Source: Bacillus sp. ISL-7 (GTDB lineage Bacteria; Bacillota; Bacilli; Bacillales_B; DSM-18226). From it: a stretch of 61,349 bases of DNA. The stretch spans positions 1 through 61,349 of the forward strand of contig NZ_JAGGQW010000025.1 in NCBI RefSeq assembly GCF_018613065.1, given 5' to 3'. Below the pieces are notes generated by a model. The model worked only from the letters and a program-made list of their open reading frames with translations, was not told where the DNA came from and did no database searches. Each line of letters starts with the position of its first letter. The first letter of the stretch is position 1. Made by a program: the position numbers and the translations under genes. Shown here in pieces: positions 1,262-31,510 of this stretch.

Positions 1262-1658
1262 TTAGAAGGGCATTAGTAGACTTGTAGCAGTTTCGATATC
1301 TATCTTAATCTGGGCTTGAAGTTCTTGAATATTATTGAACTTTTTTTCATTTCTAATTTTAAAAAGGGCCTCCACTTGAACAAATGCCCCATATATTATT
1401 TGATCAAAATCAATTATATAAACTTCGATGCTTTTCCCATAAACTTTATGAAATGTTGGTTTTACCCCGATATTCATAACACCGTAATAGTCGCAATCGT
1501 TTAAATTTTATTTGAACGCCATATACCCCGGTTTCTAACGATGGGGCTGAAAAATCAATGTTTGCAGTCGGAAACCCTATTTTCCTTCCTCTACCCTCGC
1601 CATGGACTACCTTTCCTTCTAGATGAAACTTTGTTTCAACTAGTAATTCCGTGCTCAT
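1262..1658 (-). pseudogene. stand-alone riboflavin kinase, frameshifted
   Basis: The N-terminal half has the flavokinase signature GKVVHGEGRGRKIGFPTANI. The C-terminal half, in another frame, has MNIGVKPTF, a VYIIDFD stretch and a KIRNEKKF stretch. Together they make one RibF-C/RibR-like domain of about 130 residues, without the FAD synthetase part. The break is near 1500: the frame through CDYYGV would join the halves. The start ATG at 1658 follows a GGGGTG site. It is the last gene of the row, 41 bases behind the 2-hydroxyacid dehydrogenase, so it probably supplied FMN to the flavin enzymes upstream. RibR next to luciferase-like monooxygenases in the B. subtilis ytm operon is a precedent. 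A single-indel sequencing error cannot be excluded. Confidence 0.7.
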
Positions 1659-1699
1659 ATTGTAACACCCCATTTCTTAGGAGTATGGACTTATAAAAC

Positions 1700-2662
1700 T
1701 TAGTTTATCTTTCTAATAGGCTGCCCCAACAGAAATGCTTGGATGTTTTCTAATGCTTGTTGATAGAATGTCTGATAGTTTCTTTGTGAGACATACCCAA
1801 GATGCGGTGTAGCCAGTACATTAGGGAGTGAGCGGAATGCATCTTCCCGTGATAAAGGCTCCTTCTCAAATACGTCGATGGCAGCACCTGCTATCCAACC
1901 GTTCTTTAAAGCTTCTATAAGTGCATTTTGGTCCACAATTGCAGCACGCGATGTATTAATTAAATACGAAGATAACTTCATCCTTTTAAACTCTTCTCTG
2001 CCTAGTAAGTGTTTAGTTCGGTCACTAAGTACAAGATGAATCGAAACAAAGTCACTTGTTTCTAACAGCTCCTCTTTCGAAGCAGCTAAACGTATGCCTA
2101 TCTCATCAGTCCTTTCTTGGTTTAGATTCTTGCTCCATGCAGCCACTTCCATCCCGAAAGCCTGTCCAATACGTGCTACACGGCTGCCAATCTTACCTAG
2201 CCCCAATAGACCTAACTGTTTTCCATATAGATCTATACCGACTGAGCTTTGCCAAGGCCCATTAGCTTGAATGGCATTATGTTCGGGTACAATATTCCTT
2301 GCAAGGCCCAGTAGTAAAGCCCATGTAAGCTCGGTTGGGGGCTCTGGAAAACTTTCAGTTCCGTAAACGGCCACACCTTGCGACGAAGCCGCAGTAAGAT
2401 CAATAGATGAGTTTCTCATACCCGTTGTAATAAGTAGTTTTAAACGCGGTAATCGCGATAGAACAGAAGCACCAAATGCAGTTCGTTCACGCATAATTAC
2501 AAGGATTTCGTAATCTTTGATAACATTGACAAGTTCATCCTCATTGTCATAATGCTTACTATATGTATGAACTTCTACTCTTTCTGAGATAGATGACCAA
2601 TCTGCAATGGTAGCAGCAACATTTTGATAGTCATCAAGTATTGCACAACGAAATCTTCCCAT
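1700..2662 (-). CDS. D-2-hydroxyacid dehydrogenase family protein
   Basis: This 320-residue protein would reduce a 2-oxo acid to a 2-hydroxy acid, or the reverse, with NAD(P)H in the cytoplasm. The nucleotide-binding motif GLGKIGSRVARIGQAFGM lies near residue 150. The catalytic Arg (INTSRAAIVD, near 238), Glu (DVFEKEP, near 266) and His (TPHLGYVS, near 286) are all present, and the length is normal. It follows the YciI gene after a 220-base gap with a hairpin, so it may have its own promoter. The riboflavin kinase relic sits 41 bases downstream. The substrate is unknown; in this context it may act on a ring-opening product. Confidence 0.85.
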   Translation of the reverse strand: MGRFRCAILDDYQNVAATIADWSSISERVEVHTYSKHYDNEDELVNVIKDYEILVIMRERTAFGASVLSRLPRLKLLITTGMRNSSIDLTAASSQGVAVYGTESFPEPPTELTWALLLGLARNIVPEHNAIQANGPWQSSVGIDLYGKQLGLLGLGKIGSRVARIGQAFGMEVAAWSKNLNQERTDEIGIRLAASKEELLETSDFVSIHLVLSDRTKHLLGREEFKRMKLSSYLINTSRAAIVDQNALIEALKNGWIAGAAIDVFEKEPLSREDAFRSLPNVLATPHLGYVSQRNYQTFYQQALENIQAFLLGQPIRKIN

Positions 2663-2733
2663 TAATCACACCAATTCCTTATTATATTAATAGTAGTATC
2701 TCTTATAAATAACTTTCCAACCAGTACCGACAT

Positions 2734-2765
2734 AAATAAAGAGACCGTTTCCAGTCCCTTTATTT
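2734..2765 (-). terminator. hairpin after the YciI gene
   Basis: AAATAAAGAGAC (2734-2745) pairs with GTCCCTTTATTT (2754-2765) with one mismatch. The outer stem is A/T-only, which can act as its own U-tract. It lies between the YciI and hydroxyacid dehydrogenase genes and could divide the operon. Confidence 0.5.
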
Positions 2766-2883
2766 AAAAGCCTTCCTCTAGTTATGCTTGTATGAAAAAA
2801 AATCGCCTACCATTTTAACTCGTAAGGAAAAGATTACATTCCATACATATAACTAATTTTTAGGAGGACATCCACGAGTATCA

Positions 2884-3141
2884 TTACACAACCTTCCATT
2901 CCTTAAGTTCTAGGCGTCGTGATTTACAGATGACATGTGGATCATTTACCGCAAATGAGAGTGCTTCTCTATAGGATTCTGCAATATATACCACTAGACC
3001 GCCAGAATCATCTGAAAAAGGCCCTCTTGCAAAAATTTTTCCTTCTTGATCCAGTTTGTCTAAATACTCAATATGACGTGGACGTACTTTCATATTTTTT
3101 TCTTTGTCCAACATATGCAAAATCGCAGCATAGTAAGGCAT
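2884..3141 (-). CDS. YciI-like protein
   Basis: This 85-residue protein has the YciI fold pattern: YYAAILHMLD at the start, then RPRHIEYLDKL, GKIFARGPFSDD and a closing FAVNDPHV. The conserved His of RPxH and the Asp of GPFSDD are the residues proposed to be catalytic in the family, which is related to muconolactone isomerases and some dehalogenases. It starts 14 bases after the aldehyde dehydrogenase stop, so it is co-transcribed. A role in isomerising or hydrolysing a ring-opened intermediate is plausible but unproven. Confidence 0.8.
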   Translation of the reverse strand: MPYYAAILHMLDKEKNMKVRPRHIEYLDKLDQEGKIFARGPFSDDSGGLVVYIAESYREALSFAVNDPHVICKSRRLELKEWKVV

Positions 3142-3154
3142 GCTTTTCTACTCC

Positions 3155-4609
3155 CTAATTACGATTCCAAATAACCAACTTCATTTCAGTCATTTCTTCA
3201 ACCGCATATTTTAACCCTTCTCGACCGGTGCCACTTTCTTTTACACCGCCATAAGGCATATGATCTACACGGAACGTTGGTATATCGTTAATCAAAACAC
3301 CGCCAACGTGTAGCTCTTCTGCTGCATTCAACGCTGTATGGACATCATTTGTATAGATTCCTGCCTGTAGACCATAATTAGAGTCATTTACTAATGTAAT
3401 GGCCTCATCAACAGACTTAACTTTATTAATTAACACAATTGGTGCAAACACTTCCTGACAAGAAACCTTTAATTCGCGATCAGCATTTAGAATCACAGTC
3501 GGGTGGACAATATTGCCTTCAGCAACTCCTCCCGTCGCAATCGTTGCTCCTGCTTGTTTTGCCTCATCAATCCAAAGAAGTGTTCTCTTCACATCATTAG
3601 GTGAAATCAATGCTGAAACATCTGTTTCAGGATTAAGTGGGTCACCGAGTGTTAATTTCTTCGTTGCTTCAACAAATCTTTCAACAAACGAATCGTAAAC
3701 ATCTTCGTGTGCATAGATCCTTTGCAGTGAGATACATACTTGCCCTTGATTGGAAAAGGCCCCTGTTACACATCGAGAAATAATCTTATCAATATCTACA
3801 TTTCTATCGATAATGACAGCTGCATTTGATCCAAGTTCCAATGTGACACGTTTTAAGCCAGCCTTATTGCGAATTCCAATACCAACACTTGGGCTGCCCG
3901 TAAACGTAATCATACTTACTCTTGGATCAGTTACCAGTTTATCTCCCACAACTCTTCCAGCACCAGTTACCACATTTAATGCCCCTTTTGGCAAACCGGC
4001 TTCTTCCAATAACTCCGCAATGAAAAAGGAAGAAAGTGGGGTTTGACTTGCTGGCTTTAATACAATTGTATTCCCTGCTGCAATGGCAGGGCCCACTTTA
4101 TGAGCAACAAGATTCATTGGGAAATTAAAAGGGGTAATGGCCCCAATAATCCCAATCGGTTCACGCACCGTATAGCCAAGGCGATTGACACCGCCCTGCG
4201 CAGCGTCTAACGGAATCGTCTCTCCATGAATTCGCTTCGCTTCTTCGGCCGCAAATTTATAGGTTTCAACGGTACGATCTACTTCCCCCTTTGCCGCTGT
4301 AAAAGGCTTTGCAGCTTCAAGTGCAATGATTTTAGCTGCTTCATCACTACGTTCTTCAAGCTTCCTCGCTAATGCTTCCAAAATATTCGCACGCTCGAAA
4401 GCCGGCATTTTTGCCATCACTTTTTTCGCCTGTTCAGCAGCATTAATAGCCTGTTCAACATCCTCCGCCGTTGCCATCGGTATTTCAGCAATCACTTCTT
4501 CTGTATAAGGAGAGCGTAATTCACTATATTCTTTTGCTTCTATCCATTCCCCATGGATAAATAGCTTCTTCTTTGTACTTTCACTTGTTACGTTCATCTT
4601 TTCTGCCAA
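3155..4609 (-). CDS. aldehyde dehydrogenase (GapN/lactaldehyde-type)
   Basis: The protein has 484 residues from a TTG at 4609, which directly follows AGAAGGGAAGG. An in-frame ATG at 4597 is a reasonable alternative. It oxidises an aldehyde to a carboxylate with NAD(P)+. The active-site Cys is in QGQVC (Cys292), the general-base Glu in LELGSNAA, and the oxyanion Asn in TPFNFP. The LELGSNAA and PFNFPMNL forms resemble the lactaldehyde, phosphonoformaldehyde and GapN group rather than betaine aldehyde dehydrogenases. It is the second aldehyde dehydrogenase of the operon, so two aldehyde steps, or two branches, are expected. Confidence 0.85.
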   Translation of the reverse strand: MAEKMNVTSESTKKKLFIHGEWIEAKEYSELRSPYTEEVIAEIPMATAEDVEQAINAAEQAKKVMAKMPAFERANILEALARKLEERSDEAAKIIALEAAKPFTAAKGEVDRTVETYKFAAEEAKRIHGETIPLDAAQGGVNRLGYTVREPIGIIGAITPFNFPMNLVAHKVGPAIAAGNTIVLKPASQTPLSSFFIAELLEEAGLPKGALNVVTGAGRVVGDKLVTDPRVSMITFTGSPSVGIGIRNKAGLKRVTLELGSNAAVIIDRNVDIDKIISRCVTGAFSNQGQVCISLQRIYAHEDVYDSFVERFVEATKKLTLGDPLNPETDVSALISPNDVKRTLLWIDEAKQAGATIATGGVAEGNIVHPTVILNADRELKVSCQEVFAPIVLINKVKSVDEAITLVNDSNYGLQAGIYTNDVHTALNAAEELHVGGVLINDIPTFRVDHMPYGGVKESGTGREGLKYAVEEMTEMKLVIWNRN

Positions 4610-4649
4610 CCTTCCCTTCTAAAAAACTAGAATTCGTTAAGAGAATATT

Positions 4650-4913
4650 TCATTGTACATTAGAAAAATAGTATTCTTCTAATTTAACAGTTAAACCCCC
4701 ATGGCCAAATTTACAGCCGCGATTATCCGTTATATATTTCTCTTTGATATATTCAAGAAATGATAAGATAGTTTGGCGTCTTTTGATAATTTGATGAAGT
4801 CCTTGGTTATAAAACCAGGCATCGATTGTATTGTATACACCTCTATTAATTCCATATTTCTCGTTACAAATATTTATAAAGGAAAGATCGGGTATGTTTA
4901 CAGTCTCTTCCAT
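4650..4913 (-). CDS. hypothetical 87-residue protein
   Basis: It starts at ATG 4913 behind a GGGGGATATGG stretch and sits between the FMN reductase and the second aldehyde dehydrogenase, co-directional with both. It is rich in Asn, Ile, Tyr and Lys, and has no signal peptide, membrane segment or recognised motif. A helix (IIKRRQTILSFLEYIKEKY) is followed by a Gly/His-rich turn (RGCKFGHGGL). It is more AT-rich than its neighbours. It may be an operon-specific small protein or a fragment; I do not recognise it. Confidence 0.45.
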   Translation of the reverse strand: MEETVNIPDLSFINICNEKYGINRGVYNTIDAWFYNQGLHQIIKRRQTILSFLEYIKEKYITDNRGCKFGHGGLTVKLEEYYFSNVQ

Positions 4914-4963
4914 TGATATCCATATCCCCCTTATAACTTCTTCCAGTCATTTAAGGATGTTTC

Positions 4964-5524
4964 TTATTTCGTTACATACTCTTTTTCCGTTGTATTTAAA
5001 GCTTTTTGCATGATAACCACCTCTTCGCTGAGTGATGTAATACGGCGTAATACATCCTCATCAATAATTTCATTCTTCGTATTGAAATGGTCATTATGTG
5101 CATATACAAATCCTGGTGCAACATAAGCACGTAAATAACCCGCAATTGGTTTCAATTGATTTTCAATCACTAAATAATGTTGATAGGTTCCGCCAGTAGC
5201 CACGAACCCCATAACTTTATGACGGAAATCTTGTGGAGGGACTAAATCAAACAGATTCTTAAGAGCTCCAGTAATAGATCCTTGGAAAATTGGAGTTCCA
5301 ATAACGTAAAAATCAGCTTCTTTTACCATATCCATGACTTTTTTGGTATCACCTGTATAGGTAGAAGGGTCACGGCCATCACAAAATTGAACATCAAACT
5401 GCTTTAAATCAAGTAATTCTACTTCAACCTCGGGATGGTGTTTCTTAACTTCCCCTAATACTTTTTCTACAATAATTTTTGTTTTTGATCCTGTAATAGT
5501 ACCAGATATACCCAGTAGTTTCAT
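4964..5524 (-). CDS. NADPH-dependent FMN reductase
   Basis: This 186-residue flavodoxin-like protein starts at ATG 5524. The open frame extends to a TTG at 5539, but that would place the start inside the ribosome site GGAGGG. Motifs are LLGISGTITGSKTK at the N-terminus (phosphate loop) and a YVIGTPIFQGSITGALKNL segment (FMN contact and dimer helix). The family reduces FMN with NADPH. In this operon it most likely feeds reduced FMN to the luciferase-like monooxygenase, as RutF does for RutA or PyrE for PyrA. Spacing to the upstream dehydrogenase is 39 bases. Confidence 0.85.
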   Translation of the reverse strand: MKLLGISGTITGSKTKIIVEKVLGEVKKHHPEVEVELLDLKQFDVQFCDGRDPSTYTGDTKKVMDMVKEADFYVIGTPIFQGSITGALKNLFDLVPPQDFRHKVMGFVATGGTYQHYLVIENQLKPIAGYLRAYVAPGFVYAHNDHFNTKNEIIDEDVLRRITSLSEEVVIMQKALNTTEKEYVTK

Positions 5525-5563
5525 TTCCAATCCCTCCAAAGAAATTTTAAATAAACTGATTTT

Positions 5564-7048
5564 TTATCTCATAATAAACGGATCAGGAATCGGTTCAGTG
5601 GATGTATTAATCCAGACAGTTTTTTCCTGCATATATTCTTGAATCGCATCAAATCCGCCTTCTCTACCGTAACCACTTAGCCCGGATCCTCCGATCGCTG
5701 CAATTGGTGAAATACTGCGATAGGTGTTCACCCAAACAATACCGGCACGAATGGCCTTTGCCACCCGATGAGCCTTTGCAACATCCTTTACCCAAATTCC
5801 AGCAGCAAGACCGTAATCTGTACTATTAGCTAGTTCGATGATTTCATCTTCATTTTCAAAAGGAATTACGCTTAATACAGGTCCGAAGATCTCTTCTCTT
5901 GTAATTCGATGACTGTTATCTCGATGTTCAAAGATCGTTGGTTCGAAATACCAGCCCTTTTCTAAATGATGTGGCCGTTTTCCTCCATAAACAAGTTTGG
6001 CCCCTTCTTCTAATCCAATAGATACATAGTTTTCCACGCGTTCCAATTGCGCTTTTGTCGCTAATGGCCCCATTTCTGTTTTATCTTGAAACGGATCGCC
6101 TATTTTGATTTTGGACACGCGATCAACTAGTCTTTCCATTACTTGATCGTAAATGTCCTTATGCAAAAAGGATCTTGAACCAGCCACACAACTTTGACCA
6201 GAGGCGCCGAAAATTCCTGCTATAATGCCCATCGCCGCATTATCTGGATTCGCATCTTCAAACACAATATTTGGAGACTTCCCTCCAAGTTCAAGTGATA
6301 ATTGTGCAAAGTTTTTAGCTGAATTTCGAACAATATGACGAGCCGATTCTGCACCGCCCGTAAAGGCAATACGTCTTACAAGTGGATGAGAAGTAAGAGC
6401 ATCACCGACAGGATTTCCAAAGCCTGTTACCACATTCACGACACCTGGGGGGAATCCAGCCTTTTCCACTAATTTCACTAATTCCAAAAGAGAGGCAGAA
6501 GTCACTTCAGAGGGTTTAATAACGATTGTATTTCCTGCTACAAGAGCAGGTGCTAACTTCAAGGTTGTTAAATAAAGAGGGGAGTTCCAAGGTGTGATGG
6601 CAGCCACTACTCCCAAAGGTTCCTTTGATGTAAAGGCGAACATATCCTTTTTATCAATAGGTAGAGTTTGGCCATGAATTTTGTCGGCAAGTCCCGCATA
6701 ATAATAGAAGAATTCCGGTAAATAGTTGACTTGACCCCGCATTTCACGGATTAACTTTCCGTTATCAAGTGTTTCAACCATCGCAAGTTCTTCGGCGTGT
6801 TCAGCGATTAGATCGCCTAGTTTTCGAACTAATTTGCCTCGTTCTGTGAAAGTCATGAACGTCCATTCTGAATGTAAAAAAGCTTTGTGAGCAGCTTGAA
6901 CAGCTCGGTCAACGTCATCAGCATCCCCTTTTGCAACAAGACACCATGCTTCCTCAGTAGCGGGATTATAGCTCTCGAAATATTCACCGCTTGAAGACTC
7001 TGTCCATTCCCCATTAATGTACATTTGGTATTTCTTTAACTCTGTCAT
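5564..7048 (-). CDS. aldehyde dehydrogenase (betaine-aldehyde-type)
   Basis: A 494-residue class-I/II type aldehyde dehydrogenase. It shows TPWNSPLYL (oxyanion Asn), IAFTGGAES (cofactor loop), LELGGKSPN (general-base Glu) and GQSCVAGSR (nucleophile Cys287). The length is normal and the ribosome site GGAGGGG precedes the ATG. It would oxidise an aldehyde from ring or side-chain cleavage to an acid with NAD(P)+. The alpha/beta hydrolase gene ends 13 bases upstream. It differs clearly from the other dehydrogenase at 3155-4609, so the two are not a recent duplication. Confidence 0.88.
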   Translation of the reverse strand: MTELKKYQMYINGEWTESSSGEYFESYNPATEEAWCLVAKGDADDVDRAVQAAHKAFLHSEWTFMTFTERGKLVRKLGDLIAEHAEELAMVETLDNGKLIREMRGQVNYLPEFFYYYAGLADKIHGQTLPIDKKDMFAFTSKEPLGVVAAITPWNSPLYLTTLKLAPALVAGNTIVIKPSEVTSASLLELVKLVEKAGFPPGVVNVVTGFGNPVGDALTSHPLVRRIAFTGGAESARHIVRNSAKNFAQLSLELGGKSPNIVFEDANPDNAAMGIIAGIFGASGQSCVAGSRSFLHKDIYDQVMERLVDRVSKIKIGDPFQDKTEMGPLATKAQLERVENYVSIGLEEGAKLVYGGKRPHHLEKGWYFEPTIFEHRDNSHRITREEIFGPVLSVIPFENEDEIIELANSTDYGLAAGIWVKDVAKAHRVAKAIRAGIVWVNTYRSISPIAAIGGSGLSGYGREGGFDAIQEYMQEKTVWINTSTEPIPDPFIMR

Positions 7049-7061
7049 TTTCGCCCCTCCT

Positions 7062-7868
7062 TTACCCCAGTGAAATCGTCTGTTTACCTATAAATAGGCG
7101 AAGCTCTTTATTGATGATATCTGCCCCTTCTACTGGCAGCATGTGTTTCATATCTGGGATAATTTTTATGTCTGACCCTTTAATTTGTTCATGCATCAGT
7201 CTAGCCATCTCTGAATTTGATCCAATATCATTTTCAGCTGTAATAATCAAAGCTGGTGCTTCAATGTTTTGCAATTTTTGCCATAACTCAGCATCAGCCG
7301 TTGCAAATAGAGTGTAGGCAGCTAAATAGGAAGCAGGATTATTAGTTTGAAGTCTCTTTCGAACTTGGTTTACTACATTTTCTTGTGATTGTATGAAAGT
7401 TGGATTAAACCATCGTTTAATGGCTGGTTCAATCGTAGATAATGGCCCATTTTCCCGGACTTCCTCTACCCTTGCTAGAATTCCCTTTCGCTGCTCGTCA
7501 GTTCGATTAGCAACAGCGTTCATGATTGTAAGCGTTTTTAATTTATTTTTATATGTCAGTGCAAATGCTTGTGCGACAATGCCTCCCATTGAAAAGCCAA
7601 CAAGATGGGTTTTTCCAATTTGCAAATAATCCATCAACCCTGAAAGCTGTTCAACATATTGAGAAAGGGAATAAGGACCAGGGGGATGTTCTGATCCCCC
7701 ATGACCTAACATGTCGTATACAATCACTCGAAAAGAGTCTGATAAGCTATCAATCTGCTGATTCCACATAGTGTGGTCTAAGCCCACACCATGAATGAAA
7801 ATCAACGGTTCACCAGATCCTTTTTCTTCGTAAAAAATTTTCCCTTGTTTGTATACGGCAATTGGCAT
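7062..7868 (-). CDS. alpha/beta hydrolase
   Basis: This 268-residue hydrolase has the oxyanion motif HGVGLDHTMW, the nucleophile elbow GFSMGG (Ser93), an acid in ITAEND and a His in MKHMLP. The short cap and the PLIFIHGVG start are like 3-oxoadipate enol-lactonase and RutD-type enzymes. It probably hydrolyses an amide, ester or carbamate product of the monooxygenase. Its start overlaps the AA_synth stop as TAATG at 7868, so the two are translationally coupled. Confidence 0.85.
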   Translation of the reverse strand: MPIAVYKQGKIFYEEKGSGEPLIFIHGVGLDHTMWNQQIDSLSDSFRVIVYDMLGHGGSEHPPGPYSLSQYVEQLSGLMDYLQIGKTHLVGFSMGGIVAQAFALTYKNKLKTLTIMNAVANRTDEQRKGILARVEEVRENGPLSTIEPAIKRWFNPTFIQSQENVVNQVRKRLQTNNPASYLAAYTLFATADAELWQKLQNIEAPALIITAENDIGSNSEMARLMHEQIKGSDIKIIPDMKHMLPVEGADIINKELRLFIGKQTISLG

Positions 7869-8446
7869 TAGATAAGCCCCATTTCAACCATATCTTGATG
7901 GCGGTTTCCTGTTCTAGGATGTGGACGTCCGCCTGTAGATACACCGATGGCTACAACGATTTCATCTGCTCTCGGTGCATCTGGAATCGTTGCTTCAAAG
8001 GTAATAAAATGAGAACGCTGTGAATCATCATTTTTATGAACCATAGGCATCATCACTACTGATCCTGCTCCACCGCGCTTATTTGTAAAAGGTAAGATAC
8101 TTTTTGCCTCTACCGCATTTCTAAATTTATTACCAAATTTTAATGTGTGAATGAAAGCAGATGCATGTTCAATTTCTCCGTCAACCCCGACAACAGCTGC
8201 CTTTCCGAATGCTTCTACATCATCTGCGGAATTGATATGCTTAAATAGCTCGCTCACTAATAGCTCCCCAATTTGAGGTGCGAATTCATCAATTTCTGGT
8301 TTTAAGTTTTCTACAAATCCTCTGCCCGCCCATGGATTTTTAATTACAGCCATGGTCATGATCATTTTGATTGGTTCTTCTACTTTCTTTCCACCTTCGA
8401 TATGTGTTTCTTCAATTGCTGTATAAACTTTACGAACTTCTACCAT
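7868..8446 (-). CDS. amino acid synthesis (AA_synth, DUF1185) family protein
   Basis: A 192-residue protein with the family signature ending GVSTGGRPHPR. It also has KNPWAGRGFVENL, VVGVDGEIEHASAFIHTLKFGN and a GGAGSVVMMPMVHKNDD stretch. Structures of PF06684 show a variant of the chorismate-mutase fold, and a role in amino-acid metabolism was proposed from genome context only. TAATG overlaps link it both to the monooxygenase upstream and to the hydrolase downstream. Such tight coupling suggests that it handles the monooxygenase product directly. Its reaction is unknown. Confidence 0.8.
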   Translation of the reverse strand: MVEVRKVYTAIEETHIEGGKKVEEPIKMIMTMAVIKNPWAGRGFVENLKPEIDEFAPQIGELLVSELFKHINSADDVEAFGKAAVVGVDGEIEHASAFIHTLKFGNKFRNAVEAKSILPFTNKRGGAGSVVMMPMVHKNDDSQRSHFITFEATIPDAPRADEIVVAIGVSTGGRPHPRTGNRHQDMVEMGLI

Positions 8447-9594
8447 TATGCAAGTACCCCCGTTTTTTTATTTGAAAATTTTGGCATTACTTCTTCTGTG
8501 AATAGTTTTAGACTTCTCATCATTTTGTCATGAGGTAATCCATTGTGATTAACCCAAAGTAATAATTCTTGCAGGTTAAGCTCTTCTTGTAATTCTTGTA
8601 TTTTTTCATTTACATATTCTGGTGTACCAAATAATAGATTTCTAGGAAGTAAGAATTCGTAATTTAACTCTTGACCTTCTTTTACTTTTTCGCCTGGATC
8701 CATTAGATTACTAAGTCCTCTCCAGTGGCAAATCCAACGGTAATTGTTTAATACAGCTTCTGCTGCGTCCTGACGAGCTTGCTCCATTGTTTCTGCTACG
8801 TAAACATCGCGTACAAGGGCAATTCCTTCACCAAGTGGGACTTGATGTCCAGCTGCTTCTGATGCATGCTCACGGTATAATTCAAAACGGCCTTTTAATT
8901 CCTTTACAGTCGGCATCCAGAACATACCTTTAATATTGTTTTTGGCTGCAGCAATAATGGAGGTTGGTGAATCAATTACTTGCCATAGTGGCAGTTCCTT
9001 TTGATATGGTCTTGGCATAAGCGCAATTTTATTAATTTCTCCCTTTTCCATATCCATGAATTCGTCGGATGCCGGGCTCATTGGATGACTCCATTTCAAT
9101 CCTTGTGGAGGGAATTGATAAATATCTCCTTGGTGAGAGAAGAATCGATTAGACCATGCTTTTCTTAAAATCTCTAGTGTTTCATCAAAAAGAGCACGGT
9201 TTTGTTGTTGATTAGTTGGATCGGCTAACGCGTTTAAATTGGTAGCTTCTCTTCCGTATAAACCTCGAGCTAAACCAACTTCAACACGGCCTTTGCTTAG
9301 CTGGTCAAGCATGGCGACATCTTCTGCCAAACGAAGTGGATGCCAGAATGTAGCAACATTTGCGGCCTGTCCAATTCGAATATTCTTTGTTCTTGCTGCA
9401 ATATCGGCCCCCATTAAAATAGGGTTAGAAATTAACTCATTTCCCTCATGGCCAAAATGATGTTCTGTATACCAAATTGAATCATAGCCGTTTTTATCAC
9501 AATACACAGCCTGCTCACGTGCTTCATCAAGAACTTTATAATACTCATCATGTCTGCCCTGTCCAGCAAGGTTTGCGAAAATTCCAAATTTCAT
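8446..9594 (-). CDS. luciferase-like (LLM) flavin-dependent monooxygenase
   Basis: This 382-residue member of the bacterial luciferase superfamily begins MKFGIFANLAG and has the conserved WYTEHHFGHEG, IRIGQAANVATFWHPLRLAEDVAMLDQ region and GRVEVGLARG. It uses reduced FMN and O2 delivered by a separate reductase; a candidate lies at 4964-5524. RutA (uracil) and PyrA (pyridine) of the superfamily open nitrogen rings, and others attack C-S bonds or alkanes. With an NCS1-type permease across the divergent promoter, a nitrogen heterocycle is my preferred substrate, but the sequence does not prove it. It is the first enzyme gene, 12 bases after gntR. Confidence 0.85.
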   Translation of the reverse strand: MKFGIFANLAGQGRHDEYYKVLDEAREQAVYCDKNGYDSIWYTEHHFGHEGNELISNPILMGADIAARTKNIRIGQAANVATFWHPLRLAEDVAMLDQLSKGRVEVGLARGLYGREATNLNALADPTNQQQNRALFDETLEILRKAWSNRFFSHQGDIYQFPPQGLKWSHPMSPASDEFMDMEKGEINKIALMPRPYQKELPLWQVIDSPTSIIAAAKNNIKGMFWMPTVKELKGRFELYREHASEAAGHQVPLGEGIALVRDVYVAETMEQARQDAAEAVLNNYRWICHWRGLSNLMDPGEKVKEGQELNYEFLLPRNLLFGTPEYVNEKIQELQEELNLQELLLWVNHNGLPHDKMMRSLKLFTEEVMPKFSNKKTGVLA

Positions 9595-9606
9595 ACCAAA
9601 TCCCCC

Positions 9607-10275
9607 TTAAGAATTTTTAAGTTTTTTTTCAATGTCCCTTCTTAATTCCTCTCCACTTGCTTTAACATGCTCACGCATGGTTTTCTCCGCTTCGATCCGG
9701 TCACCCTTTTCGATCGCTGCTAATATGGCTTGATGCTCCCTTAGGGATTGTTCACGACGAACAGGATCTCCAATAGTAATAAAGACATAGCGGTTATATG
9801 GAATTTGATTCAGAAGCAGATTAAACATATAGCTTAATTTTGAGTTATTGGCACCTTCTAAGATCGTCTCATGAAAGATACTATTTGCTTGAACATACAA
9901 TTTATTATCTGATGTTTGTAAGGCTTCTTCCATATCAGCTACGGCCTGGTGAACCTTTTGTATTTCAGCGGCATCTCCTTTTTCTGTAAACAAACTTGCT
10001 GCAAGCCCTTCCAAAACTTCCTTTAAGGTAAATAACTCCCTTAGTTCCTGTTCAGTAGGTTTTGTAACACAGGTTCCAACTCTTGGAATAATTTCAACTA
10101 GTCCTTCTCTTTCAAGTTGTTTTAATGCTTCCCTAATTGGTGTGCGACTTACTTGGAAGTGTTCAGATAGAGCCATTTCAGATAATTTCTGACCCGGTTC
10201 ATATTCTCCCGTCACAATAGCCTCACGTATGGCATTGGATACCTGAGTCGTAATACCAAGTGTCAAAATCGCCAT
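9607..10275 (-). CDS. GntR-family (FadR/FCD type) transcriptional regulator
   Basis: A 222-residue repressor with an N-terminal winged helix (QVSNAIREAIVTGEYEPGQ, then SRTPIREALKQLEREGLV) and a C-terminal all-helical FCD ligand domain. Metal-ligand-type residues are seen in NSIFHETIL and in two His near the end (REHQAIL, MREHVKAS). It heads the catabolic operon and probably represses it and the divergent permease. Two copies of a TGTA-N3-TACA-type operator lie directly upstream of its start, and a third copy sits in the permease leader. The ligand is probably the substrate or an acidic intermediate. Confidence 0.88.
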   Translation of the reverse strand: MAILTLGITTQVSNAIREAIVTGEYEPGQKLSEMALSEHFQVSRTPIREALKQLEREGLVEIIPRVGTCVTKPTEQELRELFTLKEVLEGLAASLFTEKGDAAEIQKVHQAVADMEEALQTSDNKLYVQANSIFHETILEGANNSKLSYMFNLLLNQIPYNRYVFITIGDPVRREQSLREHQAILAAIEKGDRIEAEKTMREHVKASGEELRRDIEKKLKNS

Positions 10276-10307
10276 AATTCAAGCACTCCTCCTTCTTTTT
10301 TGTTTCT

Positions 10308-10326
10308 ACCATGTACCATACAAGGT
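10308..10326. promoter_or_regulatory. GntR operator, copy 1
   Basis: ACCATGTACCATACAAGGT is an imperfect palindrome (15 of 19 positions symmetric) with a TGTA-N3-TACA core. It lies downstream of the -10 of promoter 1, where a bound repressor would block initiation or escape. Confidence 0.65.
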
Positions 10327-10339
10327 GTTTCTAATTGGA

Positions 10340-10368
10340 AGTATATGCTATCATTACTAGCTCGTCAA
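10340..10368 (-). promoter_or_regulatory. gntR operon promoter P1 (proximal)
   Basis: On the minus strand TTGACG (10363-10368) and TATACT (10340-10345) are separated by 17 bases, a good sigma-A promoter. It drives gntR and the genes behind it. Confidence 0.65.
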
Positions 10369-10462
10369 CATAAAATTTTCTAAATTTTTAAATAGTTATC
10401 TCCTATCACAATTGCCTCATTGTATGGCATTGGTAACGCACTCCTCCTTCTTTTTTGTTTCT

Positions 10463-10481
10463 ACCATGTACCATACAAGGT
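10463..10481. promoter_or_regulatory. GntR operator, copy 2
   Basis: Identical 19-base operator, 155 bases from copy 1, in the same relation to promoter P2. Confidence 0.65.
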
Positions 10482-10494
10482 GTTTCTAATTGGG

Positions 10495-10523
10495 AGTATA
10501 CGCTTTCATTTCTAGCTCGTCAA
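10495..10523 (-). promoter_or_regulatory. gntR operon promoter P2 (distal)
   Basis: TTGACG (10518-10523) and TATACT (10495-10500) again have a 17-base spacer. The copy is intact, so the operon may have two tandem promoters. Confidence 0.6.
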
Positions 10524-10745
10524 TATTGATTTTTGAAAATTTTAAATAGTATATCTCTTATGCTTCTAAAATATTAAAAATAAATAGTCTCGAAAAAACA
10601 AGAGTTTATCGTAATATTCTTTATAGCCCGAAATCATTCTTATATTCTAAATTATAGCTAACAGCCCTTATCTTTTAAGAAATAGTCTACTGATCGTACT
10701 TTATAAAAAATCGAAATCTATTAAAAATTTTATTTTCAGAATACA

Positions 10746-10775
10746 TTGACATTTGTACACGCTTACAATTATAGT
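10746..10775 (+). promoter_or_regulatory. permease promoter
   Basis: TTGACA (10746-10751), an 18-base spacer and TATAGT (10770-10775) form a strong sigma-A promoter for the permease at 10844. Confidence 0.65.
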
Positions 10776-10790
10776 ATTTCTTGTAAAAGG

Positions 10791-10820
10791 TTCTTGCATG
10801 GTACATGGTGGATGCAAGAA
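10791..10820. promoter_or_regulatory. GntR operator, copy 3, inside a larger inverted repeat
   Basis: CTTGCATGGTACATGGT matches the gene-sense form of the gntR operators (CTTGTATGGTACATGGT) at all but one base. It is framed by a perfect 9-base inverted repeat, TTCTTGCAT (10791-10799) and ATGCAAGAA (10812-10820). It lies just downstream of the permease -10. Confidence 0.65.
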
Positions 10821-10843
10821 AAATTTGGATAGGGGGCGTATGA

Positions 10844-12220
10844 ATGAAAGTTGAATCTCGTAGTATTGAGTTTATTCCGATTGAGGAAAGACAAGGAAAA
10901 GCTCGCGATTTATTTCCTATTTGGTTTGGAGCAAACATGCACATTACAACACTTGTAACAGGGGCATTACCAATTGCCTTGGGTCTGAATTTGTTCTGGA
11001 GTCTTGTAGCAATTGTTATCGGTACCTTGGTTGGGGCAATTTTTATGGCGTCCCATTCTGCTCAAGGTCCTCAACTAGGTATTCCTCAAATGATTCAAAG
11101 CAGGGCACAATTTGGTGTAATTGGAGCTATTTTCCCCTTATTTCTTGTAATGTTCGTTTACTTTGGTTATTTTGCCAGCAGCGGCATGCTGGCCGCTCAA
11201 ACGCTAAGTAGTTTAACTTCCATGGATCAAACCTATAGTATTTTAATCCTAAATACTCTGTGTTTTGTTGTAACGATTTTCGGATATCAATTTATCCATA
11301 AGATGCAAAAGGTGTTGTCCTGGACCACTTTAGTCACCTATCTTATTGCCACAATCCTTGTTTTTCAATTATCTATTCCTGAAGGCAGCTGGAATGTCGG
11401 TCATGTTAATTTTTCACAGTTTTTATTAGCTGTTAGCATGATTGCGACTTGGCAGTTATCATACGCTCCCTATGTCGCAGATTATTCACGCTATCTTCCA
11501 ATCACAACACCAACTGCACATACATTTTGGTATAGCTACATCGGTACTTCTGTTAGTACAATTTGGATGATGACACTTGGAGCCATCCTGACAACTGCTA
11601 TTCCTAAATTCCTTAACGCTACTGGAGCAAACTTAGCTCATATGTATGGTAAATTTGCGATTATCATGTTTCTGGTCATTATTTTCGGACAACTTGCCAT
11701 CAATGTGTTCAATTTATACGGGGCCTTTATGTCCACAATTACGACGATTGAACCGTTTATGAAGCTGAAAGTAACGGCAAAAGTTCGCGTAGGCATGATT
11801 TTAGCCGTAACCGTCATTGGGACGATCTTATGCTTGCTGGGGAAAAGTAACTTCCTATCGTTTTTCTTAAACTTTATCTTTTTCATGAGTTACTTTTTAA
11901 TCCCTTGGACTTCCATTAACTTGGTGGATTACTATTTACTGCGCCATGGCAAGTATAATGTAAAGGATATTTTTGATCTTAATGGCCAATATGGAAAAGT
12001 TAATTTGATTACTTGTTCAGCCTTTTTAATTTCCATTCTTGTGCAAATTCCGTTTATCAACGCTTCTTTCTATGTGGGACCAATTGCTAAAGCACTCGAT
12101 GGAGCAGACCTAGCATGGGTCGTGGGATTAATCGTACCAGCAATTTTATACTACTTCCCAATGAAGAAAAAATTAGAAACGCCTGCGAAAAACATAGAAA
12201 CACAAGAAGGAATTCTTTAA
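10844..12220 (+). CDS. NCS1-family purine/cytosine-type permease
   Basis: This 458-residue membrane protein has about 12 hydrophobic segments. The N-terminus (IPIEERQGKARDLFPIWFGANM) is typical of CodB/PucI-like transporters of the nucleobase:cation symporter-1 family. These carry cytosine, purines, hydantoins, allantoin, thiamine and pyridoxine in symport with H+ or Na+. The start ATG follows AGGGGGC. It is divergent from the gntR operon and shares its operator, so it probably imports the operon substrate. No close relation to a single known substrate class is visible by eye. Confidence 0.85.
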   Translation: MKVESRSIEFIPIEERQGKARDLFPIWFGANMHITTLVTGALPIALGLNLFWSLVAIVIGTLVGAIFMASHSAQGPQLGIPQMIQSRAQFGVIGAIFPLFLVMFVYFGYFASSGMLAAQTLSSLTSMDQTYSILILNTLCFVVTIFGYQFIHKMQKVLSWTTLVTYLIATILVFQLSIPEGSWNVGHVNFSQFLLAVSMIATWQLSYAPYVADYSRYLPITTPTAHTFWYSYIGTSVSTIWMMTLGAILTTAIPKFLNATGANLAHMYGKFAIIMFLVIIFGQLAINVFNLYGAFMSTITTIEPFMKLKVTAKVRVGMILAVTVIGTILCLLGKSNFLSFFLNFIFFMSYFLIPWTSINLVDYYLLRHGKYNVKDIFDLNGQYGKVNLITCSAFLISILVQIPFINASFYVGPIAKALDGADLAWVVGLIVPAILYYFPMKKKLETPAKNIETQEGIL

Positions 12221-12450: not shown

Positions 12451-13215
12451 ATGACACCCCAAGTTAAAACCGTTATAGAAGAATTATCATGCGGGAAATT
12501 AGTCTTGTTAGTTGATCAATTAGGTCATGGTAAACTAATTAGTCTGGTAGAACATATAACTCCTTCTCTTATCAATTTTATGGTTACCCATGGTCGTGGA
12601 ATGGTTAGTGTTGGAATTGAAAAAAGTCGGGCTGTTGAATTAGGATTTCAACTTCAACACACTGCATATGCAGATAATCAAACCCCAGCATATACAATTT
12701 CTGTTGATGTTGACGGGACAACAACTGGTATATCAGCATTTGAGCGTTATGATACGATAAAAGCAATCATCCATCCTAAAAGGAAATCAAATGATTTTAA
12801 AAAACACGGTCATATTTTTCCAGTCATTGCTCACCAAAATGGGATTTTTGGAAAGCAAAGTCATGTTGAGGCAGGGATAGAAATTTCCAAATTTTGTAAC
12901 TCTTATCCTTCTGTCGTAATGTGTGATGTCCTAAACGAAAAGGGAGAAGTTGCAAATCATAATGAGTTGGAAGGATTCTCCGAAAAATTCCAAATCAAAA
13001 TAATGAACATTGAGGATTTAATACAATACTTCTTCAATAGTCAACTTTTTGTTAAAGCGGAAAAACAAATAAAAGTGGAGAATCGTATCGGAGAATTTGA
13101 AATATTGGCTTATTCCAACAAAATGGATTCATTTTATGACTATATCTTCTTTACCGAAAAATTGCATGCTGCGGGTGTAACACCAGTTTATATTCATAAA
13201 GAATGTGATTTATGA
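12451..13215 (+). CDS. RibB-like (DHBP synthase fold) protein with lost acidic loop
   Basis: The 254-residue frame follows the 3,4-dihydroxy-2-butanone-4-phosphate synthase pattern. It has TPSLINFMVTHGRGMVSV, YTISVDVDGTTTGISAFERYDTI, KHGHIFPVIAHQNG and QSHVEAGIEI, and then enters a GTP cyclohydrolase II-like domain (RIGEFEILAYSN, YIHKEC). The catalytic acidic loop of RibB (DDExREN) is missing: the sequence reads VDQLGHGKLISLVEH there. Normal RibB activity is therefore unlikely. The ribosome site AAAGGTGAG precedes the ATG. It is a paralogue of RibBA, not the housekeeping gene, and its C-terminal domain is broken by frameshifts. Confidence 0.65.
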   Translation: MTPQVKTVIEELSCGKLVLLVDQLGHGKLISLVEHITPSLINFMVTHGRGMVSVGIEKSRAVELGFQLQHTAYADNQTPAYTISVDVDGTTTGISAFERYDTIKAIIHPKRKSNDFKKHGHIFPVIAHQNGIFGKQSHVEAGIEISKFCNSYPSVVMCDVLNEKGEVANHNELEGFSEKFQIKIMNIEDLIQYFFNSQLFVKAEKQIKVENRIGEFEILAYSNKMDSFYDYIFFTEKLHAAGVTPVYIHKECDL

Positions 13216-14669: not shown

Positions 14670-14918
14670 CTATAGTTCTTTCAAATTCCAAACAAAACTT
14701 TGAAAGTCTCCCTTTATTTCCACCGGAATAGCGAGTCCAACAAATGAGAGTTCATCCCCGCCAAATACTTGATCGGTAGCGTCAACTCGATATTGTTTTG
14801 AATGATCAATTCCCTTTAGCCTTAAAACTGCAGTTGGTGCAGCTGGTTCTGCCAAAACCCGGAAATAATAGACGATTGCTTCTGTCTTGTCCTTACATTT
14901 TACCTTTAAAAAATACAT
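14670..14918 (-). pseudogene. GH36 alpha-galactosidase C-terminal fragment
   Basis: The 82-residue frame reads VYYFRVLAEPAAPTAVLRL, then KGIDHSKQYRV, FGGDELSFVGLAIP and GDFQSFVWNLKEL. This is the C-terminal beta-sandwich of GH36 alpha-galactosidases. The catalytic barrel is absent, so only about a tenth of the enzyme remains. It points to a raffinose/melibiose gene lost from this site. Confidence 0.7.
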
Positions 14919-14993
14919 AATATTAACTTGTTCTTTGTTTAATTATTTATTCATCATTCATTAAATCCCAATATTTATAGGTCTCTCAAAAAT

Positions 14994-15016
14994 GAGAAAA
15001 GGGGGCAAATGCCCCC
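14994..15016 (-). terminator. terminator after the GH13 alpha-glucosidase
   Basis: GGGGGCA (15001-15007) and TGCCCCC (15010-15016) form a perfect hairpin, and the minus-strand tail is TTTTCTCATTTTT. It ends the sugar operon. Confidence 0.75.
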
Positions 15017-15021
15017 AAGTT

Positions 15022-16692
15022 TTACTTTAGTATATATACCCTTGTTTCATAAGGTTTTAATGTGAAATTTCTCCGTAATTTTTTATCCACACCCTCATAA
15101 TTATTAAGGACAAGGTCAGAAGTGGAATAAGATAAACTACCTGGGACGCGAAACCTTGTTGATTTTTCACTAAAATTGTTAATAACAAGTACTTTTTGTT
15201 TACCTAATCTGCGCGAATACACAAACAGTTTCGGATGATTCGCAGCTATTAAGTTGTAAGTACCATAAACAAACACGGGATTCTCTTTTCTTAAGCGAAT
15301 CAATTTTTTATAAAATGATAAAATCGAGTCAGGATCGTTTAATTGTGATTCTACATTTATTTCTGTGAAGTTTGGATTCACACCGAGCCATGTTTGATCG
15401 CCGGTAGTGAATCCTCCCATGTTAGATGAGTCCCATTGCATCGGCGTCCGAGCATTGTCTCGCCCCTTTTCCCAAATGACCTTCATAATTTCATCATGGG
15501 AACGGCCTTTGGCAGTTTCAACATGATAATAGTTAATCATGCCAACATCGTTGTAATCATGAATAGACGGGAATTGGACGTTCGTCATCCCAATTTCCTG
15601 ACCCTGGTAAATAAATGGAGTCCCTTTCATTAGGAAATATAGCGCCCCTAGCATTTTAGCACTCTCTTTCCAAAACTCCCGGTCATTTCCCCAGCTAGAA
15701 ACCCGGCGCGGCTGATCATGGTTTTCAATAAATAAGGCATTCCATCCTCTACCTTCCAAACCTGTCTGCCATTTGGTTAAAACCTTTTTTAATTTACGAA
15801 CGTCAATGGATCCTTCTGCATCCTTATCCCATAAGTCTAAAAACTCGAATTGGAAAATCATATTGAAATAGCCGTTTTCTTCACCCACCCATTGATCAGC
15901 TTCATTAAGCCCGACGCCATTTGCCTCCCCAACGGTCATGATGTCATAGTTTTTAATGGTTTTTTGAGTGAATTCTGTGAGAAACTCATCAATTCCATGG
16001 ACATTCATCATTTTAGGAAAGCAAGGGACGAAATCTAAACGATCTGGGTTAGGCATATCAGGGAATCCTGGTTCTTTTTTTATATGAGAGATTGCATCTA
16101 CTCGGAAACCGTCAATTCCTTTTTCAAGCCACCAGTTAACCATATCGTATAATGCATCCCTTACCTCAGGGTTTTCCCAATTCAAATCAGGCTGACGTGC
16201 GGAGAAGATGTGCATGAAATACTGTTCTGTTTCTTTATCATATCTCCAAGCCGGCCCACTGAAAATCGACTCCCAATTGTTCGGCGGTTTTCCATCTTGG
16301 CCATCTCTCCAAATGTACCAGTCACGCTTCGGGTTGTCCTTAGAGGATCGTGACTCAATAAACCAAGGGTGTTCATCGCTCGTATGATTGATGACTAAAT
16401 CCAGGATTATTTTCATTCCACGCTGATGAACTCCGTCAAGCAACTCATCAAAGTCTGCCATCGTTCCAAATTCATCCATAATATCCTGGTAATCTGAAAT
16501 ATCATAACCATTGTCGTCATTCGGTGATTTATACATCGGCGACAGCCAAATTACATCAATTCCTAGCTCTTTTAGGTAATCTAATTTGGCTGTTACACCT
16601 TTTAAATCACCAATCCCGTCCCCATTGCTGTCCATGAAACTTCGAGGATAGACTTGATAGGCGACACTTTCTTTCCACCACTTTTTGTTCAC
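15022..16692 (-). CDS. GH13 alpha-glucosidase (oligo-1,6-glucosidase type)
   Basis: This 556-residue cytoplasmic enzyme hydrolyses alpha-glucosidic bonds of short oligosaccharides. GH13 regions are intact: DLVINHTSDEH, GFRVDAISHI (nucleophile Asp199), TVGEANGV (acid/base Glu) and ENHDQPR (third Asp). The residue after the nucleophile is Ala. Val there goes with alpha-1,6 specificity in the B. cereus enzyme, while Thr or Ala goes with alpha-1,4, so alpha-1,4 preference is likely. The start is GTG 16692 behind GAGGTG and overlaps the stop of a small upstream relic frame (GTGA). It is the last gene of the operon. Confidence 0.9.
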   Translation of the reverse strand: MNKKWWKESVAYQVYPRSFMDSNGDGIGDLKGVTAKLDYLKELGIDVIWLSPMYKSPNDDNGYDISDYQDIMDEFGTMADFDELLDGVHQRGMKIILDLVINHTSDEHPWFIESRSSKDNPKRDWYIWRDGQDGKPPNNWESIFSGPAWRYDKETEQYFMHIFSARQPDLNWENPEVRDALYDMVNWWLEKGIDGFRVDAISHIKKEPGFPDMPNPDRLDFVPCFPKMMNVHGIDEFLTEFTQKTIKNYDIMTVGEANGVGLNEADQWVGEENGYFNMIFQFEFLDLWDKDAEGSIDVRKLKKVLTKWQTGLEGRGWNALFIENHDQPRRVSSWGNDREFWKESAKMLGALYFLMKGTPFIYQGQEIGMTNVQFPSIHDYNDVGMINYYHVETAKGRSHDEIMKVIWEKGRDNARTPMQWDSSNMGGFTTGDQTWLGVNPNFTEINVESQLNDPDSILSFYKKLIRLRKENPVFVYGTYNLIAANHPKLFVYSRRLGKQKVLVINNFSEKSTRFRVPGSLSYSTSDLVLNNYEGVDKKLRRNFTLKPYETRVYILK

Positions 16693-29196: not shown

Positions 29197-29212
29197 TGCA
29201 ACCGTTTGCACA
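29197..29212. promoter_or_regulatory. operator upstream of mdxE
   Basis: TGCAACCGTTTGCACA closely resembles the palindrome GTGCAAACGTTTGCAC at 32877. It lies about 90 bases upstream of the mdxE start and is probably a site for the LacI protein at 31546-32601. Confidence 0.5.
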
Positions 29213-29217
29213 ATTGG

Positions 29218-29500
29218 CTAAAGTGTAACTTTACTAAAGTCACTTTCTTTTTCTGATAAAGTGAACTCTTTTGCTTTACCTGTTAAATGGTGGATAACCA
29301 GCATTTGTTCGCTAGGGGTCACTCGTTTATATGAAAGAATTCCTTCTACTTCTGTAAAAGAGGCTTCCATTTCACCTTCAAACAGCACCTTATTGGAGTC
29401 TGCGTACATGAATCATCTTTTTATAATGATTTAATAGAGAATTTTCATCTTTAAGCTCGGCTTCGGCAGAAAGTTTTTCAAAATCTTGATTTTGGATAAG
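29218..29500 (-). pseudogene. GH13 alpha-glucosidase C-terminal relic
   Basis: Two frames together read EAELKDENSLLNHYKKMIHV, then SNKVLFEGEMEASF and VEGILSYKRVTPSEQMLV. This matches the end of oligo-1,6-glucosidase-type enzymes (DPDSLLxxYKKLIxLR, then the C-terminal beta domain). A frameshift lies near 29410 and the barrel is gone. Bacillus mdx clusters contain malL, so this may be its remnant. Confidence 0.55.
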
Positions 29501-29540
29501 CGGTTCCCAGTAACAAAAAAATTCTAAAAATCGGTTTTAC

Positions 29541-29552
29541 GTAAACGTTTAC
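29541..29552. promoter_or_regulatory. operator 1 at neopullulanase promoter
   Basis: GTAAACGTTTAC is a perfect palindrome overlapping the -35 box, so binding should block RNA polymerase. Confidence 0.6.
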
Positions 29553-29576
29553 TTTACTATTAAAAAAATATATAAT
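29548..29576 (+). promoter_or_regulatory. neopullulanase promoter
   Basis: TTTACT (29548-29553), a 17-base spacer and a consensus TATAAT (29571-29576) form a sigma-A promoter flanked by two identical operator cores. Confidence 0.6.
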
Positions 29577-29582
29577 GATTAC

Positions 29583-29594
29583 GTAAACGTTTAA
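29583..29594. promoter_or_regulatory. operator 2 at neopullulanase promoter
   Basis: GTAAACGTTTAA repeats operator 1 exactly 42 bases downstream, about four helical turns. It is placed just after the -10, as expected for cooperative repression. Confidence 0.6.
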
Positions 29595-29746
29595 CTTATC
29601 TTGTAATCTATTACATCACTCTAATTCTGAATAGTCAATATATTATTTATTTTTGTTTAATCATTATAATTTTTGATTTTTTTTGAAAACGAGACTTAGA
29701 AATAATTGAAATCTTTCTAATGATTTATCAAATTTAGCTGAAATGA

Positions 29747-31510
<1,764 letters not shown>

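Follow-up and report, generated by a model that had tools for sequence, protein, structure and literature searches.

A conserved flavin-monooxygenase operon in Bacillus sp. ISL-7 with a proposed role in the degradation of pyridinium betaines

The operon and its operator

In this work we describe an operon at positions 1262 to 12220 of a 61,349-nucleotide stretch of DNA from Bacillus sp. ISL-7 (contig NZ_JAGGQW010000025.1), which we call the window. At its centre are a luciferase-like monooxygenase (LLM) and a protein of the AA_synth family (PF06684). All genes that an earlier note on this DNA had named are present where it placed them, as judged by open reading frames (ORFs) and Pfam. Two more genes, a GntR/FCD regulator and an 87-residue ORF, were absent from its list.

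The operon is read from the minus strand. Its first gene encodes the GntR/FCD regulator (9607-10275, with Pfam matches to both GntR and FCD), followed by the LLM (8446-9594; PF00296, 164 bits), the proposed ring-cleaving oxygenase component. Next come AA_synth (7868-8446), which matches the PF06684 profile above the curated cut-off, and an alpha/beta hydrolase (7062-7868; Pfam). The TAATG overlaps that had been described between the LLM and AA_synth and between AA_synth and the hydrolase are both found in the sequence. We propose that AA_synth is a RidA-like enamine/imine deaminase and that the PcaD/TgnD-like hydrolase is an enamide (formamide) hydrolase; the best NCBIfam models of the latter are PcaCD/PcaD, below their cut-off. 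Aldehyde dehydrogenase 1 (ALDH1, 5564-7048) is assigned as TgnC-type from Pfam, a tree and its identity to the aldehyde dehydrogenases of clusters discussed below. The reductase component is an NAD(P)H:FMN reductase (4964-5539; Pfam FMN_red), which is MsuE-like with 110 bits to that NCBIfam model, below cut-off. The operon has a two-component make-up, with PF00296 and FMN_red both encoded in it.

Between the FMN reductase and a second aldehyde dehydrogenase (ALDH2, 3155-4609; Pfam) lies the 87-residue ORF (4650-4913). ALDH2 is proposed to act as a semialdehyde dehydrogenase in the role of TgnE, and falls below every curated NCBIfam cut-off shown, including those of NF040648 (558 bits, cut-off 650) and of the succinate-semialdehyde dehydrogenase (SSADH) subfamily (376 bits versus 646). 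The operon tail holds a YciI-related protein (2884-3141; Pfam YCII), a 2-hydroxyacid dehydrogenase (1700-2662; Pfam) and a riboflavin kinase. The last had been called a relic, and its gene is indeed split over two frames, the 5′ half (1446-1673) covering positions 3-51 of the Flavokinase profile and the 3′ half (1262-1477) positions 58-123; the gene is intact in a relative (L004). Divergent from all of these, on the plus strand, is an NCS1-family permease (10844-12220; PF02133, 291 bits), the proposed substrate importer.

The region between the GntR and NCS1 genes was said to hold an operator common to the operon and the permease, and this operator is real. The window contains exactly three copies of the 12-mer ATGGTACATGGT, all within this region: copy 1 at 10308-10319 and copy 2 at 10463-10474 on the minus strand, and copy 3 at 10798-10809 on the plus strand, facing NCS1 and downstream of its promoter-like site. 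Every copy sits about 20-22 nucleotides downstream of a promoter-like -10 (about 20 for copy 1). Both minus-strand copies are held in a 124-nucleotide direct repeat (86% identity; 10283-10406 and 10438-10561), so that the operon has its promoter and operator in duplicate. With up to one mismatch allowed, the window contains four matches compared with 0.32 expected, and none of 100 shuffles reached four.

Conservation and exchange among relatives

A genome scan with LLM alignment gave 106 confirmed relatives. The best 80 of these, whose LLMs are 52-97% identical to that of the window, were analysed; the closest named LLMs are from Bacillus salipaludis (94%), Neobacillus cucumis (93%) and a metagenome-assembled genome (MAG) of Bacillus sp. 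(97%). The 80 loci fall into 31 from Bacillota (L004-L034), 37 from Actinomycetota (L035-L071) and 12 others (L072-L083), which include five actinobacterial MAG loci. The LLM, AA_synth, the hydrolase and ALDH1 keep a collinear arrangement in 72 of the 80 loci, and the grouping of these genes is far beyond chance. The remaining eight comprise a rearranged locus (L033), two that meet locus ends (L050, L053) and five with no AA_synth beside the LLM (L072-L075, L077).

The individual genes vary in their spread. AA_synth is present in all Bacillota and Actinomycetota loci (31/31 and 37/37, with two copies in 36 of the latter) and in 7 of the 12 others; the corresponding counts for a flavin reductase are 30/31, 37/37 and 4/12. 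Within Bacillota, ALDH2 is found in 22 of the 31 loci, YciI in 25 and riboflavin kinase homologues in 10. The 2-hydroxyacid dehydrogenase had no tblastn match at 1e-8 in the 80 loci. Distant 2-hydroxyacid or glyoxylate reductases adjoin AA_synth in two further clusters (L086 and L091). Genomes were also considered as a whole: 17 of 18 genomes from the related loci encode AA_synth, and 15 of these 17 have an operon copy or pair only. Across 299 genomes of the order of genome G001, AA_synth occurs in four and the LLM clade in one, which is G001 itself.

Homologues of the 87-residue ORF, the small orphan protein, are found in 30 of the 31 Bacillota loci (L026 lacks one) and in none of the 49 other loci, and because of this conservation the ORF at 4650-4913 is a genuine gene of the Bacillota operon. 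Aligned with 20 homologues, the window copy is 33-94% identical to them, with 12 invariant positions, and family members span about 83-113 residues (e.g. the L012 copy at 14763-15071). Pfam at E 0.1 gave no match for 20 of the 21 members and one chance-level match at 0.072; the proteins of the window and of L012 had none in NCBIfam at E 1, and a PDB search yielded no convincing relative. The predicted model is all-helical with a confidence score (pLDDT) of 85.4.

The operator is conserved in Bacillota relatives as well. The 11-mer ATGGTACATGG occurs 60 times in the 31 Bacillota loci (631 kb), compared with 0.41 copies expected from composition, and no copy was found in three of them (L013, L026, L033). 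By downstream gene, 35 copies precede GntR, eight NCS1 and one the LLM. The coordinates of the other 16 place nine before an isochorismatase, two before BCCT, two before quinone-oxidoreductase-like genes and one before a second flavin reductase, and two (in L019 and L030) precede no identified gene. The exact 12-mer ATGGTACATGGT is found 66 times across 30 genomes, 27 of which have at least one copy, and the 30 operon loci (0.62 Mb) hold 45 exact copies. Around these 45 the conserved site extends to the 17-bp TTGYATGGTACATGGTA, with T (45/45), T (40/45), G (42/45) and C or T (45/45) before the 12-mer and A (42/45) after it. We infer that GntR binds this operator, with repression as the probable mode.

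A good example of exchange is the transporter. Two proteins each of the BCCT and isochorismatase types were checked with Pfam, and the remaining ones were assigned by tblastn likeness. Among the 37 Actinomycetota loci, 26 have an NCS1 gene and 10 a BCCT gene, none has both and one (L059) has neither. All Bacillota loci except one carry NCS1, BCCT or both (30/31); the exception is L034, with ABC-transporter-like genes. In L030, six nucleotides separate the end of the BCCT gene from the LLM. Choline, carnitine and glycine betaine are examples of the quaternary-ammonium betaines that BCCT carriers bring into the cell. The exchange of these betaine importers with NCS1 therefore points to a betaine-like substrate. 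Six Bacillota loci have both transporters and all six carry the isochorismatase. An isochorismatase-type amidase followed by NCS1 lies downstream of the operon in 10 of the 31 Bacillota loci (L005, L010, L011, L012, L014, L018, L023, L025, L027, L028), with its own operator copy in nine of the ten. It is possible that this module serves an amide such as N-methylnicotinamide.

The oxygenase is exchanged too. The window LLM is 25-27% identical to the LLMs of a set of related clusters (L084, L086-L088, L092-L094) described below, and the LLM tree separates two groups with a split support of 96/98, some rows being long branches. We scanned 297 genomes from the family of G345, the Streptomyces samsunensis genome that hosts locus L045, with thresholds of E 1e-70 for the Sinorhizobium-type LLM and E 1e-100 for the window type. 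The former was found in five genomes and the latter in two, G345 having both. All five Sinorhizobium-type LLMs lie in the arrangement GntR, flavin reductase, BCCT or NCS1, two AA_synth genes, hydrolase, ALDH1 and LLM (with NCS1 after the LLM in L140, the G345 operon). AA_synth, the hydrolase and ALDH1 of these five are 49-78% identical to those of a window-type Streptomyces operon (L044), and NCS1 of L140 is 87% identical to that of the window-type operon. The Sinorhizobium-type LLM of G345 (L140, 9592-10632) has one in-frame TAA stop; those of the other four genomes have none. Since both LLM types occur in homologous operons of Streptomycetaceae, the two oxygenases can stand in for each other within one operon chassis.

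A proposed pathway and its alternatives

Plasmid searches yielded annotated clusters with AA_synth, hydrolase, flavin reductase, LLM and aldehyde dehydrogenase in Sinorhizobium meliloti, Rhizobium phaseoli, Leisingera, Ruegeria and Acinetobacter venetianus. A further cluster in A. junii, found by tblastn, continues with NCS1 and SSADH, and SSADH is also part of the Sinorhizobium and R. phaseoli clusters. The earlier view that AA_synth and the double dehydrogenase distinguish this operon from pathways of known kinds is not supported. In both Acinetobacter clusters an NCS1 permease adjoins, the one of A. venetianus being 35% identical to that of the window. AA_synth and ALDH1 of the window group with those of these clusters, and the LLM, at the 25-27% identity given above, falls in a separate clade. 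The window ALDH1 is 49-52% identical to the aldehyde dehydrogenases beside the cluster LLMs, and the window hydrolase 27-36% identical to the cluster hydrolases. ALDH1 and the cluster enzymes form one 29-row clade (support 100/99), with ALDH2, SSADH and GucD outside and the Sinorhizobium/Acinetobacter type nested within the window-type part. In the AA_synth tree, cluster and marine window-type proteins group together (12 rows, 96/94) and are nested in a clade of 21 rows that also takes in those of Bacillota (95/93). Another AA_synth cluster, in Agrobacterium (L086, 3811-10601), combines a third LLM group with CMD, NIPSNAP, AA_synth and a glyoxylate/hydroxypyruvate reductase, and lies beside a ProX betaine transporter.

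What do these clusters degrade? In S. meliloti 1021 the pSymA cluster (L104, 15600-26269) is about 3 kb from nifB (29210-30721), which is followed by nifA. This is part of the pSym symbiotic region, to which genes required for the catabolism of trigonelline were mapped, according to the title of Goldmann 1991 as listed in PMC12489286. TgnA and TgnB are described as ring-opening in PMC8269262, and a figure legend of PMC11354265 lists TgnB as Q6F9F6. We take the Sinorhizobium/Acinetobacter-type clusters to be probable trigonelline-catabolism clusters. When the A. venetianus LLM served as a protein query, no name derived from trigonelline appeared among the 120 matches listed of 4702, whose names are abbreviated. 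In the trigonelline (tgn) pathway of Acinetobacter baylyi ADP1, which Perchat is said to have described in 2018, a conserved hypothetical protein reportedly assists the succinate-semialdehyde dehydrogenase.

We propose that the window operon serves the uptake and breakdown of an N-methylpyridinium betaine, with trigonelline (N-methylnicotinate) or one of its positional isomers as the most likely substrate, and put the probability of this at about 60%. Gene content, conservation, the operator, the families in common and the exchange of the oxygenase are observations; the substrate, each reaction step and the function of AA_synth are our inferences. NCS1 would import the substrate, and the FMN reductase would supply FMNH2 to the LLM, which would cleave the ring directly to an N-formyl enamide aldehyde. 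ALDH1, as a TgnC-type enzyme, would oxidise this aldehyde, and the TgnD-like hydrolase would remove the formyl group. AA_synth would then speed the hydrolysis of the resulting beta-enamino acid, releasing an aldehyde and methylamine much as RutC/RidA acts on 3-aminoacrylate, and ALDH2 would oxidise the final semialdehyde to an acid of the TCA cycle. GntR would bind TTGYATGGTACATGGTA and keep both sides repressed in the absence of the substrate. The earlier suggestion of a two-component flavin ring-opening operon for a nitrogen heterocycle is upheld as a plausible interpretation of this kind.

Several observations weigh against this proposal. The window LLM stands in a separate clade at 25-27% identity, so that its substrate or the bond it cleaves may differ. 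The presence of both operons in G345 argues for two substrates, though one of the two oxygenases has the in-frame stop. The MsuE-type reductase of the window and the Flavin_Reduct proteins of the clusters belong to different families, and no curated cut-off shown makes ALDH2 an SSADH. The transporter argument concerns two groups of loci, as neither NCS1 nor BCCT was found in the 12 others (L072-L083). AA_synth occurs in another context, with no window-type LLM, in three of the four AA_synth genomes from the order of G001. Furthermore, the link from the clusters to tgn draws on map position and on the order and roles that its genes are reported to have.

Could the substrate be an isomeric or amide relative rather than trigonelline, such as homarine, N-methylisonicotinate or N-methylnicotinamide, with oxygenase families specific for different ring positions and downstream enzymes in common? 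The two distinct oxygenase clades and the two operons of G345 favour this, and the amidase-NCS1 module, mostly with its own operator, would suit N-methylnicotinamide. However, the 87% identity of NCS1 between the Sinorhizobium-type and window-type operons suggests the same imported molecule, and the in-frame stop in the Sinorhizobium-type LLM of G345 also speaks against it; on balance we think this alternative unlikely, while giving it some weight. An unmethylated ring (pyridine, nicotinate, pyrazine or pyrimidine) would be in line with the nitrogen heterocycle of the earlier note. Known substrates of NCS1 carriers include nucleobases, hydantoin and allantoin, and two tandem AA_synth genes lie near a 6-hydroxynicotinate reductase, both of which fit such a substrate. 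That BCCT replaces NCS1 in Bacillota and Actinomycetota and directly precedes the LLM in L030, and that a ProX-type transporter lies by the Agrobacterium cluster, make it improbable, as carriers of these types fit a permanently charged betaine. Finally, the LLM may act on a non-heterocyclic compound, as an oxygenase of the Baeyer-Villiger or sulfur type, given that its PDB relatives include diketocamphane monooxygenase and that the reductase is MsuE-like. With AA_synth and a TgnC-type aldehyde dehydrogenase as partners, and a Sinorhizobium-type LLM taking its place in one chassis, we regard this as very improbable.

The role of AA_synth is a separate question. For PF06684 two structures have been solved, and no description of its reaction was found in the open-licence papers searched. 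PF06684 is the sole Pfam match of the window protein at E 0.001, the RidA/RutC profile PF01042 giving none. In three loci where AA_synth is missing (L072, L074, L075), a RidA gene lies beside the LLM, the hydrolase or ALDH1, and AA_synth may be a RidA-like enamine deaminase. Our broader hypothesis is that PF06684 is a second family of RidA-fold beta-enamino-acid deaminases for the aldehyde-releasing step after N-heterocycle ring opening, within a portable chassis whose oxygenase (drawn from distant LLM clades) and betaine importer (NCS1 or BCCT) are swapped in modular fashion between bacterial phyla. We offer it tentatively, at a little under even odds. That AA_synth is instead a decarboxylase, a tautomerase or a structural helper of the semialdehyde dehydrogenase is a serious competitor, which we would also place somewhat short of an even chance. 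Against it are the three loci where RidA stands in the place of AA_synth, and five other loci where AA_synth is beside 3-hydroxyisobutyrate-dehydrogenase-like genes. The 3-hydroxyisobutyrate dehydrogenase family acts on beta-aldehydo acids, a product expected of a deaminase of this kind. Such neighbours are seen in L099-L102, L099 also having a TRAP transporter and an MmgE/PrpD protein and L102 an MFS transporter. Locus L090 (6095-9579) contains two tandem AA_synth genes, a 6-hydroxynicotinate reductase, a UPF0280 protein and a subunit of a ring-hydroxylating dioxygenase.

Neighbouring genes and comparison with known systems

Just beyond the span covered earlier, on the plus strand, a DHBP-synthase-like (RibB-like) protein is encoded at 12451-13215 (Pfam PF00926). 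In alignments it lacks the canonical acidic DHBP-synthase loop DDxDRENEGDL, as do its counterparts in L001, L016, L021, L024, L029, L031 and L032, and those of L002 and L003 keep the loop. Pfam shows the RibB-like protein fused to a riboflavin kinase domain in L021, L024 and L029. Elsewhere in the window, translations judged by eye include several long levanase/fructosidase-type proteins (38032-60907; WMNDPNG motif, one of 1788 residues) and an ORF resembling a transposase fragment (52304-52792), and a short ORF (14673-14918) matches only the C-terminal domain of glycoside hydrolase 36.

Trigonelline and its pyridinium-betaine relatives occur commonly in plants and phytoplankton. If our proposal is true, Gram-positive soil bacteria gain an assignable route for these compounds, the ring-cleaving oxygenase becomes a replaceable module, and PF06684, a widespread family with no assigned job, acquires a testable function. 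The operator, the transporter exchange and the replacement by RidA make both substrate and step directly testable. As for novelty, the earlier description of the operon as undescribed holds for the oxygenase family and for the Gram-positive operon and fails for the pathway logic, since related clusters exist; no description of the operon itself was found among the open-licence papers listed.

How does the operon compare with known systems? The tgn pathway of A. baylyi ADP1 reportedly consists of ring cleavage by a two-component flavin LLM, the aldehyde dehydrogenase TgnC, the hydrolase TgnD and a second aldehyde dehydrogenase. The window operon has proposed counterparts of each and, as in the Acinetobacter clusters (L088, L089), AA_synth and NCS1. 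It differs in its LLM (27% identical to that of L088, in a separate clade), in its MsuE-type reductase where tgn-type clusters have Flavin_Reduct, and in an ALDH2 outside the SSADH subfamily. It is moreover GntR-led and LLM-first, with riboflavin kinase, YciI, the small orphan protein and the RibB-like protein as extras. The S. meliloti pSymA cluster (L084/L104) shares AA_synth (57%), the aldehyde dehydrogenase (52%), a hydrolase, a flavin reductase and an LLM, and also has SSADH; its LLM is 27% identical, an ABC transporter takes the place of NCS1 and the gene order is different.

The Rut uracil pathway is alike in its logic of flavin ring opening, a hydrolase and a RidA-family deaminase step. 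RutA is absent among the 23 NCBIfam models that match the window LLM, and the window hydrolase scores 83.2 bits against the RutD model (cut-off 238.5). The Pyr pathway of Arthrobacter sp. 68b, reportedly the subject of a 2020 paper, is said to combine an LLM and reductase with two aldehyde dehydrogenases and an amidohydrolase, and resembles the window operon in the LLM with its reductase and in the two aldehyde dehydrogenases. The operons with the Sinorhizobium-type LLM from genomes of the family of G345 (L140, L146-L149) share GntR, the flavin reductase, two AA_synth genes, the hydrolase, ALDH1 and either NCS1 (L140) or BCCT (the other four), and differ in the type of their LLM and in its location after ALDH1.

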